From: Melioribacteraceae bacterium
GTDB lineage: Bacteria > Bacteroidota > Ignavibacteria > Ignavibacteriales > Melioribacteraceae
Assembly: GCA_021740785.1 (NCBI GenBank)
Contig: JAIOZI010000020.1
Span: 1 to 64,000 of the forward strand
DNA: 64,000 nt
Direction of reading: 5' to 3'
Below are positions 1 to 57,851 of this stretch, in pieces. The notes beneath the pieces were generated by a model. It saw only the letters and a program-made list of their open reading frames with translations, did not search any database and was not told the origin of the DNA. The number at the start of each line of letters is the position of its first letter. The first letter of the stretch is position 1. The position numbers and the translations under genes are program-made.

Positions 1-1
1 T

Positions 2-127
2 GCTCCTAGGTTTAACAGAGCGGCAAAACGATTGGCCGAATTATTAAATGAAACTCACACAATATTTCCGGGTACAAATTTACGCTTAATTTTCAAAACC
101 ACTGCACTTTCATTTTGCGGGGGGTAA
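2..127 (+). CDS. C-terminal tail of a protein cut by the window edge, possibly a transposase
   Basis: An open frame enters from the left edge and stops with TAA at 125-127, giving about 41 residues. The readable tail includes LAELLNETHTIFPGTNLRL. A Thr-x-x-x-(F/Y)PGT-(N/D)LRL-type ending recalls the end of some DDE transposases, but this is memory of a motif, not an alignment. The duplicated queE fragment and MITE just downstream make a mobile-element remnant plausible. The start lies outside the window, so length and family cannot be judged. Confidence 0.3.
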   Translation, partial: APRFNRAAKRLAELLNETHTIFPGTNLRLIFKTTALSFCGG

Positions 128-138
128 GGTGTTCTGAT

Positions 139-467
139 ATTACTATTTTTGACATCCTGTATTCTGCAGATAAATTATTGGTTAGAAAGGAATTACGATT
201 GTTAAACCCAAAAAAATCATTGGAAATAAATTTTTTGCCGTTTGTCACTCATAAAATGTTTTATAAAAACATTTAATGTTGCGGGGTTAACCCCGACAAT
301 TTGTAAGAAAAATATTTTACTCAAATAACGAATTCCAAAATTTCTATGGCTGAGTATTTGATATTTCACAACTTACAAATTGTCGGCACGAAGGGCAGAT
401 TTTCCAATGGAAAATCTGGGTTAAAAGTAAATGAAATATATTTTTCAATTCAGGGTGAGAGCTCAAG
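139..467 (+). pseudogene. Duplicated 5' end of queE, split by a MITE
   Basis: Bases 139-206 match the region just before and over the start of the intact queE (about 3740-3815). After an interruption, 421-467 continues the match through the codons for the first residues (VNEIYFSIQGESS). The match then ends and no rest of the gene follows. The break is a 214-bp MITE at 207-420 flanked by TTAAA on both sides. This is a non-functional partial duplicate. The intact copy, more than 3 kb away, gives the uninterrupted sequence and so fixes the insertion point to the base. Confidence 0.85.
207..420 (+). mobile_element. MITE copy 1, 214 bp, TTAAA target duplication
   Basis: The element begins CCCAAAAAAATCATTGGAAA and ends TTCCAATGGAAAATCTGGG. 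The ends are imperfect inverted repeats sharing CCCA and (C)ATTGGAAA. It is flanked by TTAAA (202-206 and 421-425), absent as a pair from the intact queE. It has no ORF of note. A second near-full-length copy lies at 4863-5077 and solo ends occur near 57.1 and 57.5 kb. The TTAA-centred duplication suggests mobilisation in trans by an unidentified transposase. Confidence 0.85.
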
Positions 468-537
468 AGCTGATCTACAAAATAAATGACCATATTTATT
501 CATCGTAATCAATATTTTTTCTTATAGATCATTTTTA

Positions 538-708
538 TCACAAAATCGTACTTAAAAAGTGGTTATTGGCAGCGGCAGTTTGACTTAAATTTATTGCTGT
601 AGTTCCAGTAGTGCCACATATTGGAGGGTCATTGCTTGCATATGAAATGGATAATATACTTAATAGGAGAATACTCATAACAACTAAATTCCTCTTAAAA
701 TATTTCAT
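538..708 (-). CDS. Small secreted peptide, 56 aa, unknown function
   Basis: A 57-codon frame starts at ATG 708 behind a good ribosome site (AGGAAGAG, about 7 bases away) and ends with TGA at 538-540. It starts 11 bases after the stop of the upstream T9SS cargo gene, so the two are probably co-transcribed. Residues 1-24 form a basic then hydrophobic signal peptide (MKYFKRNLVV..LLLSILSISYA). The mature part, about 32 residues, is rich in Thr, Ala and Asn with one Cys. No family is recognised. It has no counterpart after the second copy of the cargo gene. It could be the 5' remnant of a longer gene. Confidence 0.5.
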   Translation of the reverse strand: MKYFKRNLVVMSILLLSILSISYASNDPPICGTTGTTAINLSQTAAANNHFLSTIL

Positions 709-719
709 AATTCTCTTCC

Positions 720-1679
720 TTATTTTAATAATATCATAGATTTTGTTTTAACTGGTTTTGAATTTTGTAAAATAGAATAAAAATAAATTCCGCTTGAAAC
801 CGTTTGTTTGTATCTGTTTTTACCATCCCAGTAAATTGAATAATTGCCAGGTAAGTAATCTTTATTATTAAGTAATCTATTTACCTCTTTGCCCTCAACA
901 TTATAAATTATCAACGATAATGTAGCAAATCGAGAGAGAGAGAAGTTAATAGTTGTACCAGCATTAAAAGGATTTGGATAGTTTTGTTCAAGTTCTAATG
1001 TTGATGGGAAAATACTATTTTTATAATTTTCAACAGAGGTTATTACATTAGTTGTATCACCATATAATACGCCGTCAATTACAGCGCCTCTTAAATTACT
1101 ACTGCCTATGATATCACCTCCACCTAACCACACACAACCTAAACCTTTTGCTAGGTCTACTCCATGGCGAACTAAGCCAAGTGTATCAGTAGTATCAGGA
1201 GTAAAGTAATAGTATGTATTCATAACTGTATATATTTTCCCAAAATAGTTTTCTTCATATATTATACCAACTCTTGCCATTTCGTAACCTTGAACTTCAC
1301 CATTATCATAGTAAGTCTTCAATATCCACTGGTCACCTTTTTCTGCATTTAGTTTGAATGCTATCACATTATCCGACTCAAAAACTCTTCCCCAAACTTG
1401 GTTTAAGGTGTCAATTTTATATTGAATTGTATCTGGAAAAGGAACAGCTGGAACTGAGATAGGATTTATATACCTGCTTGTTTGTGTAATATAGACATTA
1501 CCAAAAGCATCTGTTGAATCATAATGATTGAATACTTGAGCAGTGTCAACATATAACGGGCCATCATAGAAAAAGTACTCCCACATATCGCCGTCGTGTT
1601 GGGGAAAATAATCTAAATTGCTTTCTGTCTGTGCTATAATACAAGAGGTTAGAACAAATATTAAAATAAAATTTTTCAT
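720..1679 (-). CDS. T9SS-type secreted protein, duplicate copy A
   Basis: 319 residues with a signal peptide (about 1-17, ending CIIAQ) and a C-terminal T9SS type A sorting domain (about 235-319) containing LEQNYPNPFNAGT, the usual SGIYFY segment and the terminal KTKSMILLK. Cargo of this kind is exported by Sec, crosses the outer membrane by T9SS and stays on the surface or is released. The middle region is of unknown function. The gene is a tandem duplicate of the one at 1969-2949: the first 75 residues and about 165 bp of upstream DNA are nearly identical, while the C-terminal halves differ clearly. Confidence 0.85.
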   Translation of the reverse strand: MKNFILIFVLTSCIIAQTESNLDYFPQHDGDMWEYFFYDGPLYVDTAQVFNHYDSTDAFGNVYITQTSRYINPISVPAVPFPDTIQYKIDTLNQVWGRVFESDNVIAFKLNAEKGDQWILKTYYDNGEVQGYEMARVGIIYEENYFGKIYTVMNTYYYFTPDTTDTLGLVRHGVDLAKGLGCVWLGGGDIIGSSNLRGAVIDGVLYGDTTNVITSVENYKNSIFPSTLELEQNYPNPFNAGTTINFSLSRFATLSLIIYNVEGKEVNRLLNNKDYLPGNYSIYWDGKNRYKQTVSSGIYFYSILQNSKPVKTKSMILLK

Positions 1680-1852
1680 TTTAGAACTCCATTATCAAGT
1701 TTTATTGAAACTATACTCCTTAAGCTAAGTAAAGCCGGAAAAGAAGATATACAAGTTTAACAAACTGTTCTTAAGGCATTTACATGAAGAAGTAAAGTAA
1801 ATGCTGCAAACAAATATGTTGCTTATAATTAATATAGACATTATAAAAATAA
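1680..1852. repeat. Duplicated upstream block, copy A
   Basis: This block is nearly identical to 2950-3117, with only a few substitutions (for example CATGAAG against CTTGTAG). It precedes the start codon of each duplicated T9SS cargo gene, so it carries the promoter of both and is part of a tandem duplication of roughly 1.26 kb. Confidence 0.85.
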
Positions 1853-1968
1853 TCATCTTCAAATGAATGTAAGTATAACTATGAATATCAAGAATATCAC
1901 CGGAGCCGGGAAAATCGCTCCAACCTGGTTAGGTGCACTGTATTGAATTTATTCATTGTTGTTATTCC

Positions 1969-2949
1969 TTATTTTATTAATATCATTTGTTTTGTTTGTC
2001 GGAACGATCCTTTGGAAACATATTTTGAATCCATAAAAATGGTATAAAAATAGACGCCGCTTGTGAGTTTCTGATTGTATTTATCTTTAGCATTCCAATA
2101 GATAGAATAATTTCCCGGAGGATAGTATTTGTTGGTAATTAGTTCCGTCACTTCTTCGCCATTAATATTGTAGATGAGCAATGATAAATTAGCAGGCTGA
2201 GAAAGTGAGAAATTTATATTTGTTCCGGCATTAAAGGGATTGGGATAATTTTGTCTAAGTTCAAATATCTTAGGTAAATTCTTTTCAATTAGTCCTTCAA
2301 CGGAGGTAATAATATTTGTTGTATCTCCATATAATACATCAGCAATAACAGCGCCTATTAAATATACACTGCCGGGAGATTCTCCGCCACCCTTCCAAAC
2401 ACAACCTAATCCTTTAGCTAAATCTTGTCCATAAATTACATATTCTTCTTGTGTATTTGCTGTATCTGATGTGAAGTAATAATATGTATCCATTATGGTA
2501 TATATTTTTCCAAAATAATTTTGTTCATAAATCGAACCTACTTTAGCCATAGCGTAACCCATTATTTCATCATTATCATAGTAAGTTTTCTGTATCCACT
2601 GTTCACCTTTTTCTGCATCCAATTTAAAGGCGATTACATTGTCTAACTCATGCACTCTTCCCCAAACTTGGTTTAAGGTGTCAATTTTATATCTCATTGT
2701 ATCCGCAAAAGGAACTGCCGGTGTTTGAATTGGATTTATATACCTGCTTGTTTGGGTAATATAGACATTACCAAAAGCATCTGTTGAATCATAATGATTG
2801 AATACTTGAGCAGTGTCAACATATAACGGACCATCATAGTAAAAGTACTCCCACATATCGCCGTCGTGTTGGGGAAAATAATCTAAATTGCTTTCTGTCT
2901 GTGCTATAATACAAGAGGTTAGAACAAATATTAAAATAAAATTTTTCAT
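1969..2949 (-). CDS. T9SS-type secreted protein, duplicate copy B
   Basis: 326 residues with the same signal peptide and N-terminal region as the copy at 720-1679 (only Phe/Tyr at residue 37 differs in the first 70 or so), and a T9SS sorting domain carrying LRQNYPNPFNAGT and ending QTKQMILIK. The mid-region differs by scattered substitutions, the sorting domain more strongly. Function of the mature domain is unknown. Each copy has its own matching upstream block (1680-1852 and 2950-3117), so each may have its own promoter. Confidence 0.85.
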   Translation of the reverse strand: MKNFILIFVLTSCIIAQTESNLDYFPQHDGDMWEYFYYDGPLYVDTAQVFNHYDSTDAFGNVYITQTSRYINPIQTPAVPFADTMRYKIDTLNQVWGRVHELDNVIAFKLDAEKGEQWIQKTYYDNDEIMGYAMAKVGSIYEQNYFGKIYTIMDTYYYFTSDTANTQEEYVIYGQDLAKGLGCVWKGGGESPGSVYLIGAVIADVLYGDTTNIITSVEGLIEKNLPKIFELRQNYPNPFNAGTNINFSLSQPANLSLLIYNINGEEVTELITNKYYPPGNYSIYWNAKDKYNQKLTSGVYFYTIFMDSKYVSKGSFRQTKQMILIK

Positions 2950-3117
2950 TTTAGAACTCCATTATAAAGTTTTATTGAAACTATACTCCTTAAGCTAAGT
3001 AAAGCCGGAAAAGAAGATATACAAGTTTAACAAACTGTTCTTAAGGCATTTACTTGTAGAAGTAAAGTAAATGCTGCAAACAAATATGTTGCTTATAATT
3101 AATATAGACATTATAAA
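2950..3117. repeat. Duplicated upstream block, copy B
   Basis: This is the partner of 1680-1852. The match stops near 3117 (TAGACATTATAA), which marks the edge of the tandem duplication. Confidence 0.85.
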
Positions 3118-3807
3118 CTCAAGGCTCATCCCGAAGAATCGGGATGTCCACTTTGTTACCATTTCCGGTTAAAATACAGTTGCCCCAAAGGGATAAATGC
3201 GTAACCAACCCCCTCTGCATTATGGGGATTTAATCGCTTTTTATTTTTTCTTAATAAAACATTATTTGTCATGTTCGTAATTTATCCTGGTTCGAGAACT
3301 ATCCGTCTAACGGACTCCCAATTCCCATCCCAATATTTGCAGTACGTGTATAATTTATATTCAGTACTCAAAAACTAAACGCTTGCTGCCCGGCAAATTT
3401 TGAGTCCGCTTAATTGCTGTTTGTAAGGATTTATTTTTATCTATAAGATTAGTTAGGTTACTTTCGAAATGTAAATCAAGAATAAAAGTAAATGGGTACA
3501 TGTTTCAACTCCCCATATAATGAGAATTTAGCACAACTTAAAAAAAACTTAATTAATTTCAAATCTTTTTCAATCTAAATATATTTTGGATTTTCCATTG
3601 GCAAATCTGTGATAAATTGAGGGGTTACGTTTTCAAGATTTTCCGAATTACATTTTCAATTTGTATCGATCGCTTCTGTTGAAATATCAAAGTATTTTGG
3701 ACTGCTATGATTGTTCACAATAAATGATCTACCGTTTTAAGGGGTATATTGCTATTTTTGACATCCTGTATTCTGCAGAAAAATTATTGGTTAGAAAGGA
3801 ATTACGA
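3118..3807. other. Long gene-free stretch upstream of queE
   Basis: About 690 bases without a credible gene. It holds a perfect hairpin, CATCCCGA-AGAA-TCGGGATG (3127-3146), and a fragment resembling the MITE end (3594-3612, GGATTTTCCATTGGCAAATC). From about 3740 it matches the duplicated copy at 139-206. I saw no tRNA or clear riboswitch. Confidence 0.6.
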
Positions 3808-4446
3808 TTGTTAAAAGTAAATGAAATATATTTTTCAATTCAGGGTGAGAGCTCGAAAGCAGGTTTACCGTGTGTTTTTGTGCGCTTAACGTACTGTAAT
3901 CTGCGCTGTACTTATTGTGATACCGAATACGCATTTTACGAAGGGAAGGATCAATCAATTGATGAAATCATCTCTGAAGTAAAAAAATTTAACTGTAATC
4001 TTGTTGAAATAACAGGCGGAGAACCGCTCGTTCAGGAAGAATCGATCGACCTGATGAAACGGTTATGTGATGATGGATTTGATGTCATGCTCGAAACAGG
4101 CGGAAGTTTATCGATCAAAAACATTGATGAACGGGTGATGATAATTCTTGATTTGAAAACTCCTTCAAGCGGAATGTTAAAGAAGAATCTTTATGATAAT
4201 ATCGATATCATTAAGCAAAGAGATGAAATTAAATTTGTAATAGGCTCAAGAGAAGATTACGAATGGACAAAAGAAGTAATCGAAAAATATAATCTTACTT
4301 CAAAATGCGGAATTCTTTTCTCGGTTGTATTCGGTAAACTGGAACCGGTGAAATTAGTAAATTGGATTTTGGAAGATAATCTTAATGTAAGATTTCAACT
4401 GCAGATGCATAAATTTATTTGGGAACCCGGTAAAAAAGGTGTGTGA
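3808..4446 (+). CDS. queE: 7-carboxy-7-deazaguanine synthase QueE
   Basis: A radical SAM enzyme that converts 6-carboxy-tetrahydropterin to 7-carboxy-7-deazaguanine in the queuosine/preQ0 pathway. The CX3CX2C iron-sulfur motif is visible in TYCNLRCTYCDTEYAF, followed by EITGGEPLVQ, the GGEP motif binding SAM. I chose TTG at 3808 as start because AAGGA sits 7 bases upstream and the family starts near LKVNEIYFSIQGE; this gives 212 residues, normal for QueE. An upstream ATG at 3724 would add 28 non-homologous residues. queD follows with a one-base overlap. Confidence 0.93.
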   Translation: MLKVNEIYFSIQGESSKAGLPCVFVRLTYCNLRCTYCDTEYAFYEGKDQSIDEIISEVKKFNCNLVEITGGEPLVQEESIDLMKRLCDDGFDVMLETGGSLSIKNIDERVMIILDLKTPSSGMLKKNLYDNIDIIKQRDEIKFVIGSREDYEWTKEVIEKYNLTSKCGILFSVVFGKLEPVKLVNWILEDNLNVRFQLQMHKFIWEPGKKGV

Positions 4447-4862
4447 TGAAAATTGCTAAAGAGTTTAAATGGGAAATGGGGCACCGGCTGCCTTTTCATA
4501 AAGGGAAATGTAAAAACCTGCACGGACATACATATAAATTACTCGTTGAATTTTCCGGCGATCTTGATGTGAACGGCATGGTGATGGATTATTATGATGT
4601 TAAAAAAGTAGTGGGACCAATAGTAGAAGAACTTGATCATTCCTTCATTATTAAAAATGATGATACGGAAGTGATTGAATTCTTACAAAAAATCAATTCC
4701 AAACATGTAGTGGTCAATTTTGAAACAACTGCAGAAAATATCTGCTATTATTTTTTAGATAAAATTTCTGATGCAGATCTGCCTTCAAATATCTCAAAAA
4801 TAATGGTGAAAGTATATGAAACTGAATCCACATATGCTGAAAGTGAACGAACGTTAATTTAA
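4446..4862 (+). CDS. queD: 6-carboxy-tetrahydropterin synthase QueD
   Basis: It makes 6-carboxy-5,6,7,8-tetrahydropterin from dihydroneopterin triphosphate, the step before QueE. About 138 residues. The zinc ligands are His13 (in EMGHRLPFH), His26 and His28 (LHGH), with catalytic Cys22. ATG 4446 overlaps the queE stop by one base; a GTG at 4443 would add one codon. The stop codon lies inside the ATTTAA target duplication of the downstream MITE. Operon with queE. Confidence 0.93.
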   Translation: MKIAKEFKWEMGHRLPFHKGKCKNLHGHTYKLLVEFSGDLDVNGMVMDYYDVKKVVGPIVEELDHSFIIKNDDTEVIEFLQKINSKHVVVNFETTAENICYYFLDKISDADLPSNISKIMVKVYETESTYAESERTLI

Positions 4863-5077
4863 CCTAAAAAATTCATTGAAAATGAATTTTTTACCGCTGG
4901 TCGCTCATTAAACGTTTTAATAAAACATTTAATGTTGCGGGGTTAATCCCGCCAATTTGTAAGAAAAATATTTTACTTAAATAACGAATGCCGAAATTTC
5001 TATATAGCTTAGTATCTGATATTTCTTAACTTACAAATTGTCGGCTCGAAGGGCAGATTTTCCATTGGAAAATCTGG
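4863..5077 (+). mobile_element. MITE copy 2, 215 bp, ATTTAA target duplication
   Basis: Near-full-length relative of the element at 207-420, in the same orientation, with ends CCTAAAAAATTCATTGAAAA and CCATTGGAAAATCTGG. ATTTAA flanks it at 4857-4862 and 5078-5083. It lies between the convergent genes queD and cobB, and the duplicated bases contain the stop codon of each gene. An internal inverted pair (CAATTTGTAAG / CTTACAAATTG) gives it hairpin potential. Confidence 0.85.
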
Positions 5078-5079
5078 AT

Positions 5080-5841
5080 TTAATTTATTCTTATTTCTTT
5101 CGCTTTTTCAACTATTTTGGGTAAAACTTCTCCGGCTTTCCCGAAGAAGGATTCATCTGCAATTCGAGTCATTTCCGTGCTTTCGATATTAACTTCAACA
5201 ATGAAAGCTCCGGATTGGCGCGCGGTTATAGGGATGTAAGCTGCCGGATAGACAATTGCCGAAGTTCCCACAACAAAGCAGATATCACAACCGGAGGCTT
5301 TCCTTTCCGCCTCCGAAAATACGTCCTGAGGTAAAAATTCACCGAACCAAACCACATCGGGACGAATCAACCCGCTGCATTTAGAACAACGGGGCGATTC
5401 ACTGCCCGATTCATTTTCCAGTTTAGATATTTCGTCGGGAGAAAAAAATGTTCTACAGTCAGTACAGTAATTTCTTTCAATATTTCCGTGAAGTTCCAAT
5501 ACATTTTTGCTTCCCGCGCGGTTATGAAGGTTGTCGACATTTTGAGTAACAACCGTCACTTCATCCACAAGCTTTTCAAATTGTTTAATTGCCTCGTGAC
5601 CTAAATTCGGTTTAGTATCATGTGCAATTTTTCTTCTGTATTGATACCACTCCCAAACCAATTTGGGATTGCGCATAAATGCATCAAAACTGGCAAGTTC
5701 TTCGGGTTTAAGTTTATTCCAAATACCGTCTTTACCGCGGAAAGTAGATATGCCGCTCTCAGCAGATATTCCCGCACCGGTAAAAAAAACCACTTTCTGT
5801 GCAGTCTTCAATTTTGAGAGAAAATGATCATTAAACTTCAT
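5080..5841 (-). CDS. cobB: Sir2-family NAD-dependent protein deacylase
   Basis: Removes acyl groups from lysine using NAD+. 253 residues, typical for the bacterial class III type. Visible motifs: GAGISAESGI (22-31), QNVDNLH (100-106), catalytic His118 in ELHGN, and zinc cysteines C126, C129, C152 and C155. Tyr66 and Arg69 (WYQYRR) match the YxxR pocket linked to desuccinylase/demalonylase activity. The next upstream gene is only 1 base away, so they probably share a transcript. The stop codon lies in the target duplication of the neighbouring MITE. Confidence 0.92.
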   Translation of the reverse strand: MKFNDHFLSKLKTAQKVVFFTGAGISAESGISTFRGKDGIWNKLKPEELASFDAFMRNPKLVWEWYQYRRKIAHDTKPNLGHEAIKQFEKLVDEVTVVTQNVDNLHNRAGSKNVLELHGNIERNYCTDCRTFFSPDEISKLENESGSESPRCSKCSGLIRPDVVWFGEFLPQDVFSEAERKASGCDICFVVGTSAIVYPAAYIPITARQSGAFIVEVNIESTEMTRIADESFFGKAGEVLPKIVEKAKEIRIN

Positions 5842-5842
5842 T

Positions 5843-6619
5843 TTATTCGGTCAATTCCTTTAACATTGCCATTGCTTCTTCTTTACGCTTTTCATCATCC
5901 TCATCTTGATTCGGACTGTTAAGCGCTTTTCTAAGCATGGCAATCGCAGCATTTTCTTGGTCGGCTTCAACCAGCGCAATTGCGTAATCAACATAGAACA
6001 TAACATAATCCGGTCTTAACTCAATTGCTTTTGCAAAATGATCCAAACCGATTTCCAATTCAGCCCATCCTAATCCAAGTACGGCTCTAGCCGGAGCCCA
6101 TTTCTCACTAATTTTTGCATGAGTCCTGCCCAGCACATAATGAGAAGTTGATAAAATTTCATCTCCGCCCGTTGCCAATTGTATGGCTTTTTCAGAATCA
6201 TCACGAACTTTATTTACAACATCCGCAACCGAAAAGACACCTTTAAAGAGTGCGATTCTACCATTTGCAATTGCACGACGCAAATATGTTTCGGATCTTT
6301 CAGGCGCCGCTTGAACTGCTTTATCCGCATAATCCAAAGCCATTTCGTATGTTTTAACCTGCTGCTCTTCCTGCTCACCGGTGCTTGCAGGCAGATGCTC
6401 GCCGATATCAACATATGCGCGGCTGATTCTCCAAAGTACTTCCCAATTATTCGGCTCTAATTTTTCGGCTTTTTTTAATACATCTAAAGCGGCTTGATTT
6501 AGAAATGACTTTGTTAAACTATCCGATTGAGATATCAATCTTTCTACGGACTGTGAATAAAGCGTAGATGACAGTACAAAAAATAAAATTACAAGCCCCC
6601 ATGATACTTTGGTTTTCAT
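5843..6619 (-). CDS. Exported TPR-like repeat protein
   Basis: 258 residues with a signal peptide (about 1-23, ending STLYSQ), so probably periplasmic. The rest is helical and TPR-like, for example LDVLKKAEKLEPNNWEVLW and a repeat near 190-240 (AKAIELRPDYVMFYVDYAIA). The arrangement recalls bacterial proteins similar to regulator of microtubule dynamics, known only by repeat type. It likely mediates protein contacts; partners are unknown. It lies in a minus-strand run between the yhaM-like gene and the sirtuin gene. Confidence 0.75.
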   Translation of the reverse strand: MKTKVSWGLVILFFVLSSTLYSQSVERLISQSDSLTKSFLNQAALDVLKKAEKLEPNNWEVLWRISRAYVDIGEHLPASTGEQEEQQVKTYEMALDYADKAVQAAPERSETYLRRAIANGRIALFKGVFSVADVVNKVRDDSEKAIQLATGGDEILSTSHYVLGRTHAKISEKWAPARAVLGLGWAELEIGLDHFAKAIELRPDYVMFYVDYAIALVEADQENAAIAMLRKALNSPNQDEDDEKRKEEAMAMLKELTE

Positions 6620-32679: not shown

Positions 32680-34173
32680 GTGGTAACAGATAATCAAGTG
32701 AGGAAACTAATGAAGCTAAACCAAAGTGAAAAGAGAAAATCAATTACGGCAATAAAAGCGGGGATGGATGAAAAGACTGCAAGAAAGTATCTAAGGGAGG
32801 GTAAACTACCAAGTGAGTTACAGAAAAAGCATAATTGGAAAACGAGAAAGGATCCGTTTGAAAAAGAATGGGGAGTTCTAGAAAAAGAGTTGGAAATAAA
32901 TCCGGGATTAGAAGCGAAGACATTATTCGAGGATTTACAAAGAAAGCAACAAGGAAAATATTCGGACGGACAACTACGAACATTTCAAAGGAAAGTAAAA
33001 CAATGGAGAGCGCTCCATGGGCCGGGAAAGGAAATATTTTTCACACAAAAACACCAACCCGGTCAAATGTGTCAGTCAGATTTTACTCACATGGAAAAAC
33101 TGGGAATAACAATAGAACGGGAAAGATTCGAACATTTAATATATCATTTTGTATTACCCTACTCAAACTGGGAGAGCGGGACAATCTGTTTTTCGGAGAG
33201 TTACGAATCGTTGAGCGCCGGTTTTCAGAATGCGCTGTGGGAGCTAGGCGGAGTACCGGAAAAACATCAAACCGATAGTTTAAGTGCCGCAGTGCGGAAA
33301 CCAAATAATCAAGAAGAATTTACTGATCGTTATTCGGCTTTATTAAGACATTACAAAATATTGGGACAAAAAACCAATCCAAGCAAACCGCATGAAAACG
33401 GATCGATAGAGCAAAGACATAATAGGTTTAAGAAAGCATTGGAACAATCCTTATTGCTTCGAGGCAGTAGAGATTTTCAAAGTAGAAAAGAATATGATGA
33501 TTTTTTGAAAAAGCTATTCGAGCAATTGAATAGAGGACGCAAAACACGTTTTCTAGAAGAGGTAAAGCACTTGGGTTTGTTACCGAAGGCGCCGTTAGAA
33601 GCAGTCAAGACAATGAAAATAAAGGTCGGTAAATCAAGCACAATACGAGTAAATCATAATGTATATTCGGTAAAGAGCAGATTGATAGGCGAAGAAGTAA
33701 ATGTTCGGTTATATATGGAAAAACTGGAAATATGGTATGCTCAAAAGAAAGTCGATGAAATACCAAGATTGAAAGGCGTAGAGAAAAATAGAATTGATTA
33801 TCGACATGTAATTGGTTGGTTGGTTCGGAAACCGGGAGCGTTAACAAATTACATATACCGGGAAGAGATGTTCCCGAGCCACATGTTTAGAATGGCCTTT
33901 GACTTGATAGAGAGGAAACATCCTACAAAAGCAAACAAAGAATATTTGCAGATACTTTACTTGGCAGCAAGAGAGAATCAAACAAAAGTAGAATGGATAA
34001 TAGCCTACTTATTGGAAAAAGAGATAGATATAACGGAAAAGAAAGTAGAAGAATTACTGCAGAAAACCGAAGAAGAAATACTACGCCCGAAAAATGCAGA
34101 GATCGAAGCGATAAATTTGCATGGATATGATAATCTTCTGTCTTCGTTCAATGGTGGTAATTATGCCAAATAA
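32680..34173 (+). CDS. istA: IS21 transposase IstA
   Basis: 497 residues. GTG start preceded by GGAGAAAAG. An N-terminal helix-turn-helix (NQSEKRKSITAIKAGMDEKT) is followed by the rve integrase-like core with catalytic Asp in QMCQSDFTHME, a second Asp in PEKHQTDSLSAA and Glu in HENGSIEQRH. It cuts and joins DNA ends with IstB. Overlaps istB by 53 bases in another frame. Confidence 0.92.
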   Translation: MVTDNQVRKLMKLNQSEKRKSITAIKAGMDEKTARKYLREGKLPSELQKKHNWKTRKDPFEKEWGVLEKELEINPGLEAKTLFEDLQRKQQGKYSDGQLRTFQRKVKQWRALHGPGKEIFFTQKHQPGQMCQSDFTHMEKLGITIERERFEHLIYHFVLPYSNWESGTICFSESYESLSAGFQNALWELGGVPEKHQTDSLSAAVRKPNNQEEFTDRYSALLRHYKILGQKTNPSKPHENGSIEQRHNRFKKALEQSLLLRGSRDFQSRKEYDDFLKKLFEQLNRGRKTRFLEEVKHLGLLPKAPLEAVKTMKIKVGKSSTIRVNHNVYSVKSRLIGEEVNVRLYMEKLEIWYAQKKVDEIPRLKGVEKNRIDYRHVIGWLVRKPGALTNYIYREEMFPSHMFRMAFDLIERKHPTKANKEYLQILYLAARENQTKVEWIIAYLLEKEIDITEKKVEELLQKTEEEILRPKNAEIEAINLHGYDNLLSSFNGGNYAK

Positions 34174-34921
34174 AGAAGATATAAATACCCGGATAATCGA
34201 ATCGTTGAAAGCGTTACATCTTCCAACAATACGCAAAATATATAAAGAGCAATCAGAAACAGCGTTAAAAGAGTCATTAAGTTACGAAGAATATATCCTG
34301 GAGTTATTAGAGAGAGAAATAGAGGTAAGAAGGCAAAATCGAATAGACCGTTTGCTCAGGGCATCGAAACTACCTCTGGAAAAGACAATGGATAGCTTTG
34401 AGAGGGGAAGATTACCAAGAAGATTAGATATGCAAATCAGCGTATTGCTGGAAGGAAGTTTTTTGAATAGGAAGGAAAATGTATTAGCTTTTGGAAATCC
34501 CGGAAGTGGTAAAACACATTTACTTTGTGGAATTGCACACGCAATAGTGAGTCAATCTAGAAGCGTGTTATTTAAGTCATGCAGCCTTCTAGTCCAAGAA
34601 CTTCTGATAGCAAAACGAGATTTGAGACTACCACGAGTACTGAAACAGTTTTCAAAATATGAACTGATAGTAATCGATGATATCGGCTATGTGCAGCAAA
34701 GCCGTGAAGAAATGGAAGTTCTATTTACATTGTTAGCCGATAGATACGAAAGAGGAAGTATAATGCTAACGAGTAATCTTCCTTTTTCAAAATGGGAGCA
34801 GATATTTAAGGATCCGATGACAACGGCGGCAGCAATAGATAGGTTGGTGCATCATAGCGTAATATTGGAATTAAATTTACCGAGTTATCGGTTGGAAGAA
34901 TCAAAAAAGGAGAAAAAATGA
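34145..34921 (+). CDS. istB: IS21 helper ATPase IstB
   Basis: About 259 residues. AAA+ ATPase: Walker A in GNPGSGKTHLLCG, Walker B in LIVIDDIGYVQ, sensor segment LTSNLPFSKWEQIF. It regulates IstA and target choice. The reading frame can open at 34121, but ATG 34163 (MPNKEDINTR) or a nearby start is more likely; GGTGG precedes it, and I give an approximate start. The gene overlaps istA. Confidence 0.9.
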   Translation, partial: RSMVVIMPNKEDINTRIIESLKALHLPTIRKIYKEQSETALKESLSYEEYILELLEREIEVRRQNRIDRLLRASKLPLEKTMDSFERGRLPRRLDMQISVLLEGSFLNRKENVLAFGNPGSGKTHLLCGIAHAIVSQSRSVLFKSCSLLVQELLIAKRDLRLPRVLKQFSKYELIVIDDIGYVQQSREEMEVLFTLLADRYERGSIMLTSNLPFSKWEQIFKDPMTTAAAIDRLVHHSVILELNLPSYRLEESKKEKK

Positions 34922-34959
34922 TAGTACGGAAGAAAATCTGGATGGTGAGAAATTTTTCG

Positions 34960-35037
34960 AGCCGGGGCTAACTCCAGTCGCCCTACGGGCTCCTTCCGTT
35001 AGCCCCGGCTGAACCACCCCCCTAGGCTTACGCCTAG
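34960..35037. repeat. Two hairpins near the right end of the IS21 element
   Basis: AGCCGGGGCTAAC (34960-34972) pairs with GTTAGCCCCGGCT (34998-35010), 13 bp perfect. CTAGGC (35022-35027) pairs with GCCTAG (35032-35037). They follow istB and may terminate transcription before the element's end. Confidence 0.7.
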
Positions 35038-36856
35038 TGTAAGAATAATAACGGGAAATATAATTGTCGCTGAAAGGAAAAATAATTGACATTGATCAAC
35101 TTTGTTAGCTTCCCTGAGAAAGAAGAAGAAAAACTGCATACTTATTATCGCTCACTGGATTACTTGTGCAAAGCAAAGGAAAAGATAGAAAAAGAATTAT
35201 ACTATCAATTAAAAAGTTATGGAATAAATAACCGGTTGGTACTCTATGATATAACCTCGGTTTATTTTGAGGGTTTAGAAACCGAACTGGGCGAAAAAGG
35301 ATACTCAAGAGACAACCGCCCAGATGCCCAACAGATAGTAATCGGATTGGTAATGAGCCGTGACGGAATACCAATAGCCCACCATGTCTTTGAGGGTAAC
35401 CGTCCGGACAAAACAACGGTAGAGGAAGTTATAGAAGATTTGGAGAAACGTTTTTCAATTAAGGAGGTGGTTTTTGTTGGAGATCGTGGAATGCTGACGG
35501 TTGATAATCTTGAGTGTGTTAAATCTCGAGGCAATAATTATATGCTGGGTATGCATAAGCGAAATAGGCGAATAATAAAATATATAATGAAGCGAATAGA
35601 AAAGAAAAAGGAATTTCAAGAGATTACTTACGCTGATTTGAGTGACGAATTTAAGGAAGAGTATAGCGAAAATATAAGGCTGGTTGCCTGCTATAATCCG
35701 GATGTGGCAAAGCTTAATAAATCGACTCGAGAAAAAAACATCGGTAGTTTTGAAGAATTAAAAAACGAGACCTTGCTTGAAGGGAAATTAGACGAAATTA
35801 AGGAATCACACTTTAAGTTGAAGTCATATTTATCGAAGTATCATATGACTAAATTTTACAAAATAAATATTGAGAAAAAGGAATCGCTGGAATGCAGAAC
35901 GCCTAAGAAAACAGTGGCGAAAAAGCCCACCAAGGTTAGACAGAAGAAAGAAGAAATTTACAAAATACATATCGAGAAACAAGAGATGGTCATAGCAGAA
36001 GAGGCGGATTTAGACGGACGCTATTTTATCCAGACAGAAGTCGATAAGAGAGAATTTCCAACTCAAGAAGTTGTAGTATCTTATAAATCATTGCAGAAAG
36101 TAGAGCGGGCATTCAGAATTATAAAAAATGAATTGGATATCCGACCGGTCTTTGTTCGTCTTGAGAGTAGAATTAGAGGACATGTAATGATTTGCTTCTT
36201 CGCATTGTTGATAGAGATTTTATTAGAAAAGAAAATGTGTGAAATATTTCCCGAGCTTGAAGATGTTGATCTTAGGAAAGCGAACTTAAAAAAATCTAAA
36301 AGATGTCAAGATGATCCGTTAACAATGAAAACATTGACAGAGGAATTGGACACAATACGATTAATCCCATTATCGATAAATGCTCTTTCTTCTCACAGAA
36401 GTAGGAATGAAAAACCGAAGTATATAACCACTCAAATAGGTGATAATATAAAAAAATTCTTTTCTGCGATTGGAATTAAAAATGCAACGGAACCAACAAA
36501 ATTGAGGATTGATATAGGTAAAAAGAAGCGAGAAAATGGTCAACTGGAGCTTATTTTCGAAGAATAGAAAACGCAAATATAGTCTCCGGTTGTAAATGTA
36601 AAATAATCTCAAAAACCGGTTGTAGTACAACATGACAATTCTCACATGGCTAAGTCATTGTTTTTAAAATGGTTAGCTTTTACAAGTGTTAAACTTGGGC
36701 TACAAGGTCATATGAGTTAAAGAATATAAGATAAACAAATTGAGAATTCTTTTAATCTATTATTTTTAGGAAAATCTAATTGATTACACAGTACCCATAA
36801 TTTTTTTAATCGTTTCGAAGTAATAAAAACAAGTAAGGTGAGTTGTTTAAATGTTT

Positions 36857-57079: not shown

Positions 57080-57851
57080 TCCCGGATTTTCCAATGAAAA
57101 ATCTGCCCTCAAAAACGACAAGTTAATTTTGCAAATTGTAGGGGACGAATACCTTGCCTGCCGGCAGGCGGGTTTTCGTCCCCTACAAACCTTCTTTCCC
57201 CGCGGCATTTACGACAAAGAACACCGGAATCAAGCATGCCTGTCTAAGCTTCGAGATAACCGGTCAATTAATAAAACACAAAAATTCATTAAAAAAGCAT
57301 TTCTCATTTGTATAGCCCACTTCTTTTTAAATATCAATATCTGTTGGATAATTATGATTTTGATAGGTTTAATGGATTCTAAGTAGGGACAGTTCACGAG
57401 CTGTCTCTACAAATCATTTGGGCAGAATCATCATCAGTTACCAATAAAAAATTATGAACAAAGTAGGGGACGAAAACCTGCCGGCAGAGTCTGTTGCAGA
57501 ACTAATAAACCCGGATTTTCCATTTGAGAATCCGCCCTTCAAGCCGACAATTTGTAAGTTAATAAATTGAGCCCCGTATCTTTTCTATACGGGGCAATAT
57601 TTTACACATCCTCAAATATGCCTCCTTCTAACATCCGTTTATTTTTAACAACAGCAATTTCAATAACCCGTAAAAATCTTTTGTCGCAATAACTATTGCC
57701 AAAGTGTTGTCAGTTTGCTAAATTAATACTTAAATAAAACAGACGAGATGATTTGCTAAATCATTCTTCCTGTAAAAAGATATGTTTTTATTGATCTATT
57801 GAAAATATCTCGACCATATTTACACTTTACTATCATAATTGCAGAGATTAG
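57080..57851. repeat. Cluster of palindromic repeats and MITE ends
   Basis: No gene. Partial MITE ends lie at 57081-57118 and 57510-57565, both inverted relative to the full copies. GTAGGGGACGAA (57138-57149) pairs with TTCGTCCCCTAC (57175-57186) around GCCTGCCGGCAGGC. GTAGGGACAG (57383-57392) pairs with CTGTCTCTAC (57401-57410). Half of the first palindrome is repeated near 57464. GCCCCGTAT (57571-57579) pairs with ATACGGGGC (57587-57595) and is followed by AATATTTT, like a terminator. Confidence 0.75.

Follow-up and report, generated by a model that had tools for sequence, protein, structure and literature searches.

Bacterial MITEs are described in the main text of a review (PMC10969869) as short, non-coding and foldable sequences with inverted ends and short direct repeats, located mostly between genes, and an element of this common kind lies in the 64,000 nucleotides of a Melioribacteraceae bacterium analysed here (the window, meaning the whole stretch). 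In the literature excerpted, the described systems nearest in kind are MITEPye1, with IS1182-type ends, and the Tn3-type TIMEs. MITEPye1 of Paracoccus yeei (excerpts of PMC11578231) is likewise non-autonomous and intergenic, with IS-family-like ends and long stem-loops, but it is present in 1-3 copies per chromosome, whereas the ends of the window MITE are of IS1380 type and its genome holds about 90 right ends. TIMEs (excerpts of PMC4133298) are alike in length (~260 bp), in their 5-6 bp duplications and in being thought to be mobilised in trans, but they carry 38-bp Tn3-type ends and are usually single copy, whereas the window MITE begins with CCCA and is found in many copies. In the IS1380 family, 5-bp direct repeats are reported for IS1247 (excerpt of PMC3281130) and were seen here at one locus, L144 (L149 has 4 bp and L142 none), and CCC ends like those of the MITE occur on elements in three relatives; IS1380 elements, however, carry a transposase gene and measure ~1.4-1.7 kb, whereas the window MITE is 0.2 kb long and empty. 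The main text of the MITE review does not use the term IS1380, the family to which the ends of the window MITE point, and a further difference is that relatives of this MITE in eight genomes retain one hairpin chain. Among the open-access literature matches listed, as excerpted, none described an IS1380-type MITE family or a link of MITEs to IS1380 in Ignavibacteria. The element is thus of an ordinary kind, unusually well documented by its own locus; beyond the ordinary are a hairpin chain common to several genera and an oriented target.

Alignment to the intact gene copy in the same window revealed bases 207-420 to be a 214-bp insertion that splits a duplicate of the queE 5' end, the uninterrupted version holding a single TTAAA, the empty site, at 3811-3815 (Table 1). 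With the 214 bp and one TTAAA removed the flanks join flush (137-206 against 3746-3815, 97% identity; right flank 420-478 against 3810-3868, 92%), and the two copies align with no indel except the duplicated TTAAA. This confirmed the insertion, its exact boundaries and the TTAAA duplication as proposed in the first-pass annotation; the shared ends CCCA and CATTGGAAA were also as claimed, inverted terminal repeats (CCCA....CATTGGAAA) being present at both ends. The statement that copies differ in length by one base did not hold, as the queE copies are free of any other indel and the second MITE of the window (4863-5078), at 216 bp, is longer by two. The sequences themselves show the insertion with its duplication, how many copies there are, which target is preferred and the likeness of the ends to IS1380-family elements of relatives.

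The two genes following the intact copy match Radical_SAM and PTPS in a profile search, and the names queE and queD are given to them by inference; with the start of queE near 3808, the insertion falls within the first codons of the spare fragment. Using 3500-3870 as the query, 32 bp of the missing left part of the fragment were found near the start of contig C115, where they adjoin the other end of the IS seen at window 1-137. Because this missing part sits beside the IS end, the duplication is taken to span ~150 bp (about 3716-3868), and the spare queE fragment has received two insertions, an IS and the MITE. Duplication first and insertion after, the order given in the first-pass annotation, is the simplest one, since the other queE copy has one clean TTAAA, although a precise excision from that copy might have left an identical site. 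Between both queE copies, window segments 716-1847 and 1965-3117 are 81% identical over 1157 bp including flanking DNA; neighbouring paralogous ORFs on the minus strand (720-1679 and 1969-2949) gave weak Por_Secre_tail matches below the cut-off.

Table 1. Features of the window, and PF13701 elements of related genomes with CCC-type inverted ends
Feature	Position	Strand	Basis or remark
MITE copy, 214 bp	207-420	+	left end CCCAAAAAAATCATTGGAAA, right end ...CAGATTTTCCAATGGAAAATCTGGG
Left target-site duplication, TTAAA	202-206	.	queE-copy alignment, copy flanks
Right target-site duplication, TTAAA	421-425	.	queE-copy alignment, copy flanks
Interrupted second copy of queE 5' end, right part of ~150 bp duplication	138-478	+	alignment
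Uninterrupted copy of the duplicated stretch	3716-3868	+	left limit read by eye
Left end, with terminal inverted repeat and H1 (hairpin imperfect in window copy)	207-236	+	alignment, pair counts
Hairpin H2 (CATAAAATGTT...AACATTTAATG)	250-278	+	self inverted repeat, pair counts
H3, palindrome CGGGGTTAACCCCG	282-295	+	
Hairpin H4, arms GACAATTTGTAAG (295-307) / CTTACAAATTGTC (372-384)	295-384	+	interior varies between families
Right-end hairpin H5 CAGATTTTCCAATGGAAAATCTG	396-418	+	adjoins last GG
Another copy of this MITE, 216 bp	4863-5078	+	TTTAA on both sides (4858-4862, 5079-5083)
Related element, truncated right end	57510-57560	-	
Related element, truncated right end	57081-57109	-	
Right-end palindrome remnant, isolated	3589-3609	.	
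Right end of a different multicopy IS, end ...GTGTTCTGA	1-137	+	cuts queE fragment; TAT on both sides by eye
L144, 1486 bp	G044		ends CCCAAAATTGTCAATAGAGA / CCCAAAATTGTCATTAGAAA; ATAAT on both sides
L142, 1438 bp	G149		ends CCCAGATATTTCAGTAGAAT / CCCAGATTTTGCAGTAGGAA; no duplication
L149, 1411 bp	G111		ends CCCTAAAAACTCAATAAAAA / CCCTAATCATGCAATAGAAA; TTAA (4 bp)

No ORF of at least 60 codons was listed inside 207-420. At the second copy both convergent ORFs have their stop codons within the TTTAA, whose duplication keeps the two ORFs whole. A terminator scan of window 1-5600 gave 5 matches where 3.2 were expected; one coincides with the palindrome at the right end of this second copy (5054-5076) and none falls within 207-420, and promoter-like sites numbered 25 against 28.2 expected in the same stretch.

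Subsequently, further copies were sought in the genome of origin (G000; 4.85 Mb in 115 contigs, 99.88% complete). Scoring of the best 40 among 193 candidate places gave, in every case, an alignment at 90-100% along almost the entire element. The right-end pattern with up to 3 mismatches yielded 93 forward and 96 reverse, i.e. 189 strand matches, where a single copy may match both strands because the right end is palindromic; the reversed pattern yielded 0. A hand count at 0-1 mismatch gave 91 distinct right ends, broken copies included, 65 without mismatch and 26 with one. We read 51 near-whole copies, 49 with distinct flanks, whose lengths were 216 bp (30 copies), 215 bp (12), 214 bp (5), 217 bp (1) and 220 bp (1). 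Their 5-bp flanks are identical in 39 of 49, agree at four of five positions in 9 and at three of five in 1, copy boundaries being allowed to move by up to 3 bp; a control with swapped flanks, in which boundaries were not re-fitted, agreed in 317 of 2352 cases (13.5%), and at unshifted BLAST boundaries an exact 5-bp duplication was found in 25 of 30. The many 200-230 bp copies with TTAA-type target duplications that had been predicted elsewhere in the genome were therefore found, 48 of the 49 measuring 214-217 bp, and 207-420 belongs to a multicopy MITE family. Left uncounted were copies cut by contig ends (L031, L033, L036, L041, L044, L046, L047, L050, L053, L057, L058, L059, L062), right ends whose element could not be recovered in full (e.g. 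L032, L042, L048, L051, L052, L055, L063, L064) and the L091 copy, which is broken by an IS. Pairwise identity of the genome copies averages 91% (range 79-98%), and the MITE copies therefore do not stem from one fresh burst.

These copies bear on the converse reading of the queE locus, namely that the 214 bp are ancestral and were lost from the intact copy by precise deletion. Such an excision would leave the same single TTAAA and thus an identical picture at this locus, but similar sequence (mean identity 91%) stands at dozens of sites with 5-bp duplications of their own, and we regard a loss as extremely improbable. A second pair of filled and empty sites was found in a genome repeat, L008 and L014 being filled and L034 empty with a single ATTAG. 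In this repeat of ~300 bp the MITE always occupies a single site and is spread along with the repeat as its passenger (L008, L014, L005, L032, L041, L046, L050, L053, some showing only the MITE right end; L034 is empty near 1263), and an ORF beside it in L008 looks IstB-like by eye. At G000:C78:42931-42957 (L055, L169) two facing right ends alone form a perfect 27-bp palindrome, CCCAGATTTTCCATTGGAAAATCTGGG, between TTTAA and TTAAA, and at G143:C241:14484-14524 two left ends face each other 28 bp apart; such facing ends suggest solo ends or collapsed elements.

The target is mostly TTWAW in the orientation of the element. Across the 49 copies the duplicated bases are T (44 of 49), T (49 of 49), A/T/G, A (48 of 49) and A/T/G, and the outer positions are lopsided, with T first in 44 and A fifth in 23 (left flank) or 24 (right flank), which suggests that the two element ends are not equivalent. 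The near-invariance of the right end is in part a product of how copies were chosen, since some were fetched through an exact right-end match. Outside ORFs of at least 100 codons, which cover 76% of the loci, lie 46 of the 49 copies. With these ORFs as stand-ins for genes, 26 sites have close neighbours on both sides, and in 20 of them the neighbour on the right is oriented towards the element, a bias noticed after looking. By hand count the duplicated bases include the stop codon of a neighbouring ORF in 8 of 46 cases, whereas non-coding sites of the window that resemble the target do so in 6.5% (P 0.009, likewise noticed only afterwards).

We consider it probable that a multicopy MITE was moved in trans, most likely by an IS1380-family transposase, into the already duplicated queE 5' end. 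Having no gene of its own, the MITE would depend on a trans-acting transposase that binds both inverted ends (CCCA...CATTGGAAA) and joins the element to the spare fragment at a TTWAW-type site cut with a 5-bp stagger, whereupon repair would leave two copies of TTAAA; the IS1380 family as the most likely source of this transposase and the cut-and-join chemistry are what we infer. The first-pass annotation had called for a transposase gene with matching ends; none was found in the genome of origin, where three Pfam families (PF13701, PF01609 and PF21804) were searched. PF13701 gave 0 matches in the 115-contig assembly, so the partner is absent from it or lost in it, and none of the loci examined held an element longer than 306 bp that has MITE-like sequence at its two ends together with a duplication. 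Similar ends were instead found on IS1380-family elements of related genomes.

Among ten full-length or nearly full-length PF13701 elements of the order, three (L142, L144, L149) have CCC-type inverted ends and seven gave none in a search of ends starting with CC; when the search was widened to 28 loci, two (L144, L149) showed ends accompanied by a duplication. The transposases of L144 and L142 score 265.7 and 263 bits against the NCBIfam IS1380 model (cut-off 180). In 42 comparisons of IS ends (L142, L144, L149, L105) with MITE ends, over ~20 bp only, 10-17 of 20 positions agree, with a maximum of 16 for the family of the window. The probability of the best agreement is about 3e-7 to 6e-6 given only the first C, or about 6e-6 to 1e-4 given CCC, under assumed base frequencies and uncorrected for the 42 comparisons; the search for IS ends used the symmetry of the IS but was confined to those beginning with C or CC, and for L105 the end was chosen through a MITE-like pattern, so that the comparison is not fully independent. 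G149 holds both the IS1380 element L142 and three matches to the MITE model, and in the MITE-rich G143 a PF13701 remnant is followed, 13 bp past its stop, by an inverted end TTAAA-CCCATATTTATCATTAGAAA. From the similarity of the ends in these relatives, IS1380 is the likely mobiliser. The 60-bp ends fold at -11.7 (left) and -7.5 kcal/mol (right) in L144 and at -2.7 and -1.9 in L142; strong hairpins like those at the MITE ends are thus not shared by these IS ends in general. TTAA is the target mostly used by piggyBac elements, with IS1380 as their outgroup (excerpt of PMC10813416).

Another family that makes duplications of ~5 bp, e.g. of the ISH3 or IS1634 type, might have moved the MITE, its likeness to IS1380 ends being chance or convergence. 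This would agree with a genome of origin that is without PF13701 and with the distribution across the order, where PF13701 was found in 39 of 164 genomes (26 above the cut-off) and is not enriched beside the MITE (4 of 12 MITE genomes against 35 of 152 others); G149 has a PF13701 gene beside MITE relatives, and G143, G142 and G034 have partial matches. The genome also contains two PF01609 genes, namely an IS1634 transposase on C48 (NCBIfam 336 bits) and another DDE_Tnp_1 gene at window 35086-36567, and duplications of 5-6 bp for IS1634 and 4-5 bp for ISH3 have been reported (excerpt of PMC2266710). The ends of the C48 element and of the IS at window 1-137 are, however, both unlike CCCA...CATTGGAAA, whereas the IS1380 ends of two relatives agree with the MITE at 16-17 of 20 positions, and a mover from another family seems unlikely to us.

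The candidates within the genome were rejected individually as partners. The C48 IS1634-type element, which sits within a MITE copy, has ends CCGACTTGTGA.../...TCACAAGTCAGG that do not match CCCA...CATTGGAAA. This insertion occupies 729-2737 of L091 (G000:C48:843-4637), with the transposase at 979-2469, and its direct repeat is 116 bp when exact or ~150 bp with one mismatch by eye; long, variable repeats have been reported for IS1634 and IS1549 (excerpt of PMC2266710). For the DDE_Tnp_1 transposase no matching ends were seen beside the gene by eye; in window 34121-36567 an ORF looking by eye like an IstB-type ATPase precedes this transposase ORF (5e-11), the longest shared flank being 9 bp. 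The IS at window 1-137 shows nine right ends, each at a contig end and all GTGTTCTGA before diverging; its transposase tail (window 2-124) matches PF21804 at 23.8 bits, under the cut-off of 27, and its two ends at window 1-137 and G000:C115:1-140 (L239) are TCAGAACACCTTACCCC / TCAGAACTCCTTACCCC. It was rejected because its ends, TCAGAACNCCTTACCCC, differ from CCCA...CATTGGAAA. Tn3 and IS200/IS605 types were set aside on their features. IS200/IS605-type and REP elements are not known to make a target-site duplication, and an origin of this type does not agree with the 5-bp duplications.

Beyond the genome of origin, a DNA search at E <=0.001 matched 22 of 146 genomes, the own genome included, many by short stretches; G143 carries the element at 84-86% identity and several other genomes match over the left ~93 bp. 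An exact scan with the left 34 bp, which may leave out records of the own genome, gave 35 stretches, all from MAGs that bear the label Ignavibacteria, Ignavibacteriales, Melioribacter or Bacteroidetes. Model R1, built on the left 93 positions (cut-off E <=1e-4, rough E-values, strict filters), matched 12 of 164 genomes of the order, in 9 of 68 genera, eight of the twelve having supplied training rows; of the four new genomes G149 is strong (1e-12) and the other three range from 8e-6 to 7e-5. The one MITE relative read in G149 has TTAAA on both sides.

An alignment of 20 elements, drawn from the eight genomes that supplied training rows, revealed a common layout: CCC/GGG at the termini, then a hairpin at the left end, in most elements a GC mini-hairpin, H2, GGGGTTAACCCC, H4, a second GC mini-hairpin and a right-end hairpin, the inner part of H4 differing between element families. 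Scored on the fold of one of the 20 rows, hairpins H1, H2, H4 and H5 pair in 92.4% of cells versus 85.3 when shuffled, with both sides changed in 21 of 52 pairs (10.9 shuffled) and in 67 cells (22.4 shuffled; no more than 17 in slid versions). Little variation, and no such support, comes from the mini-hairpins, H3 and the terminal CCC/GGG, where 2 pairs changed on both sides, as many as in 70 of 500 shuffles. Compensatory changes can also arise without selection, by template switching within hairpins, and are therefore not proof of function. The rate of change at paired positions is half that at unpaired ones (3.8% versus 7.6%), and the window copy folds strongly as RNA (z -6.2), on the other strand (-5.2) and as DNA (-5.4).

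A plus-strand transcript would be expected to tolerate G-U better than A-C. Counted at the 82 pairs of the consensus fold in 49 copies, there were fewer G-U than A-C combinations (59 versus 95; distinct changes 28 versus 35), besides 22 compensated changes and 117 other mismatches, so an RNA role of the plus strand is unsupported; the A-C excess would fit a minus-strand transcript, hardly so by distinct changes. Retention by the host as a structured RNA or a REP-like 3' end element, rather than as something merely selfish, would agree with the strong folding of both strands (z -6.2 and -5.2), the compensatory changes (21 of 52 pairs against 10.9 in shuffles), the 46 of 49 copies outside ORFs of at least 100 codons with the right neighbour facing the element in 20 of 26, and, on the minus strand, an excess of A-C over G-U (95 to 59) in the tolerated direction. 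Gene-poor placement is, however, also expected from selection against gene disruption, a clear transcript-strand signal is lacking (59 versus 95; distinct 28 versus 35), 117 further changes are other mismatches and Rfam gave no match at E <=1 in window 1-6000, which makes retention by the host very unlikely. It is quite unlikely, in our estimate, that the relatives in several genera of the order form a lineage of miniature elements whose entire body, beyond the ends, is a fixed hairpin chain rebuilt by compensatory changes as the sequence drifts. In that case the hairpins may work as DNA, since no transcript strand is clearly preferred; they might, for instance, act on a single-stranded intermediate during replication or transposition. 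If true, such a mode would be unusual for an element with IS1380-type ends.

Movement of a multicopy MITE in trans, most likely by an IS1380-family transposase, thus remains our preferred account of the queE locus, which offers a clean two-site picture of one insertion together with an oriented target rule (mostly TTWAW) valid across the family. Miniature elements would thereby be linked to the IS1380 family in Ignavibacteria. Moreover, the compensatory changes in the hairpins pose the question of why an element with short IS-type ends has palindromes along its whole length.
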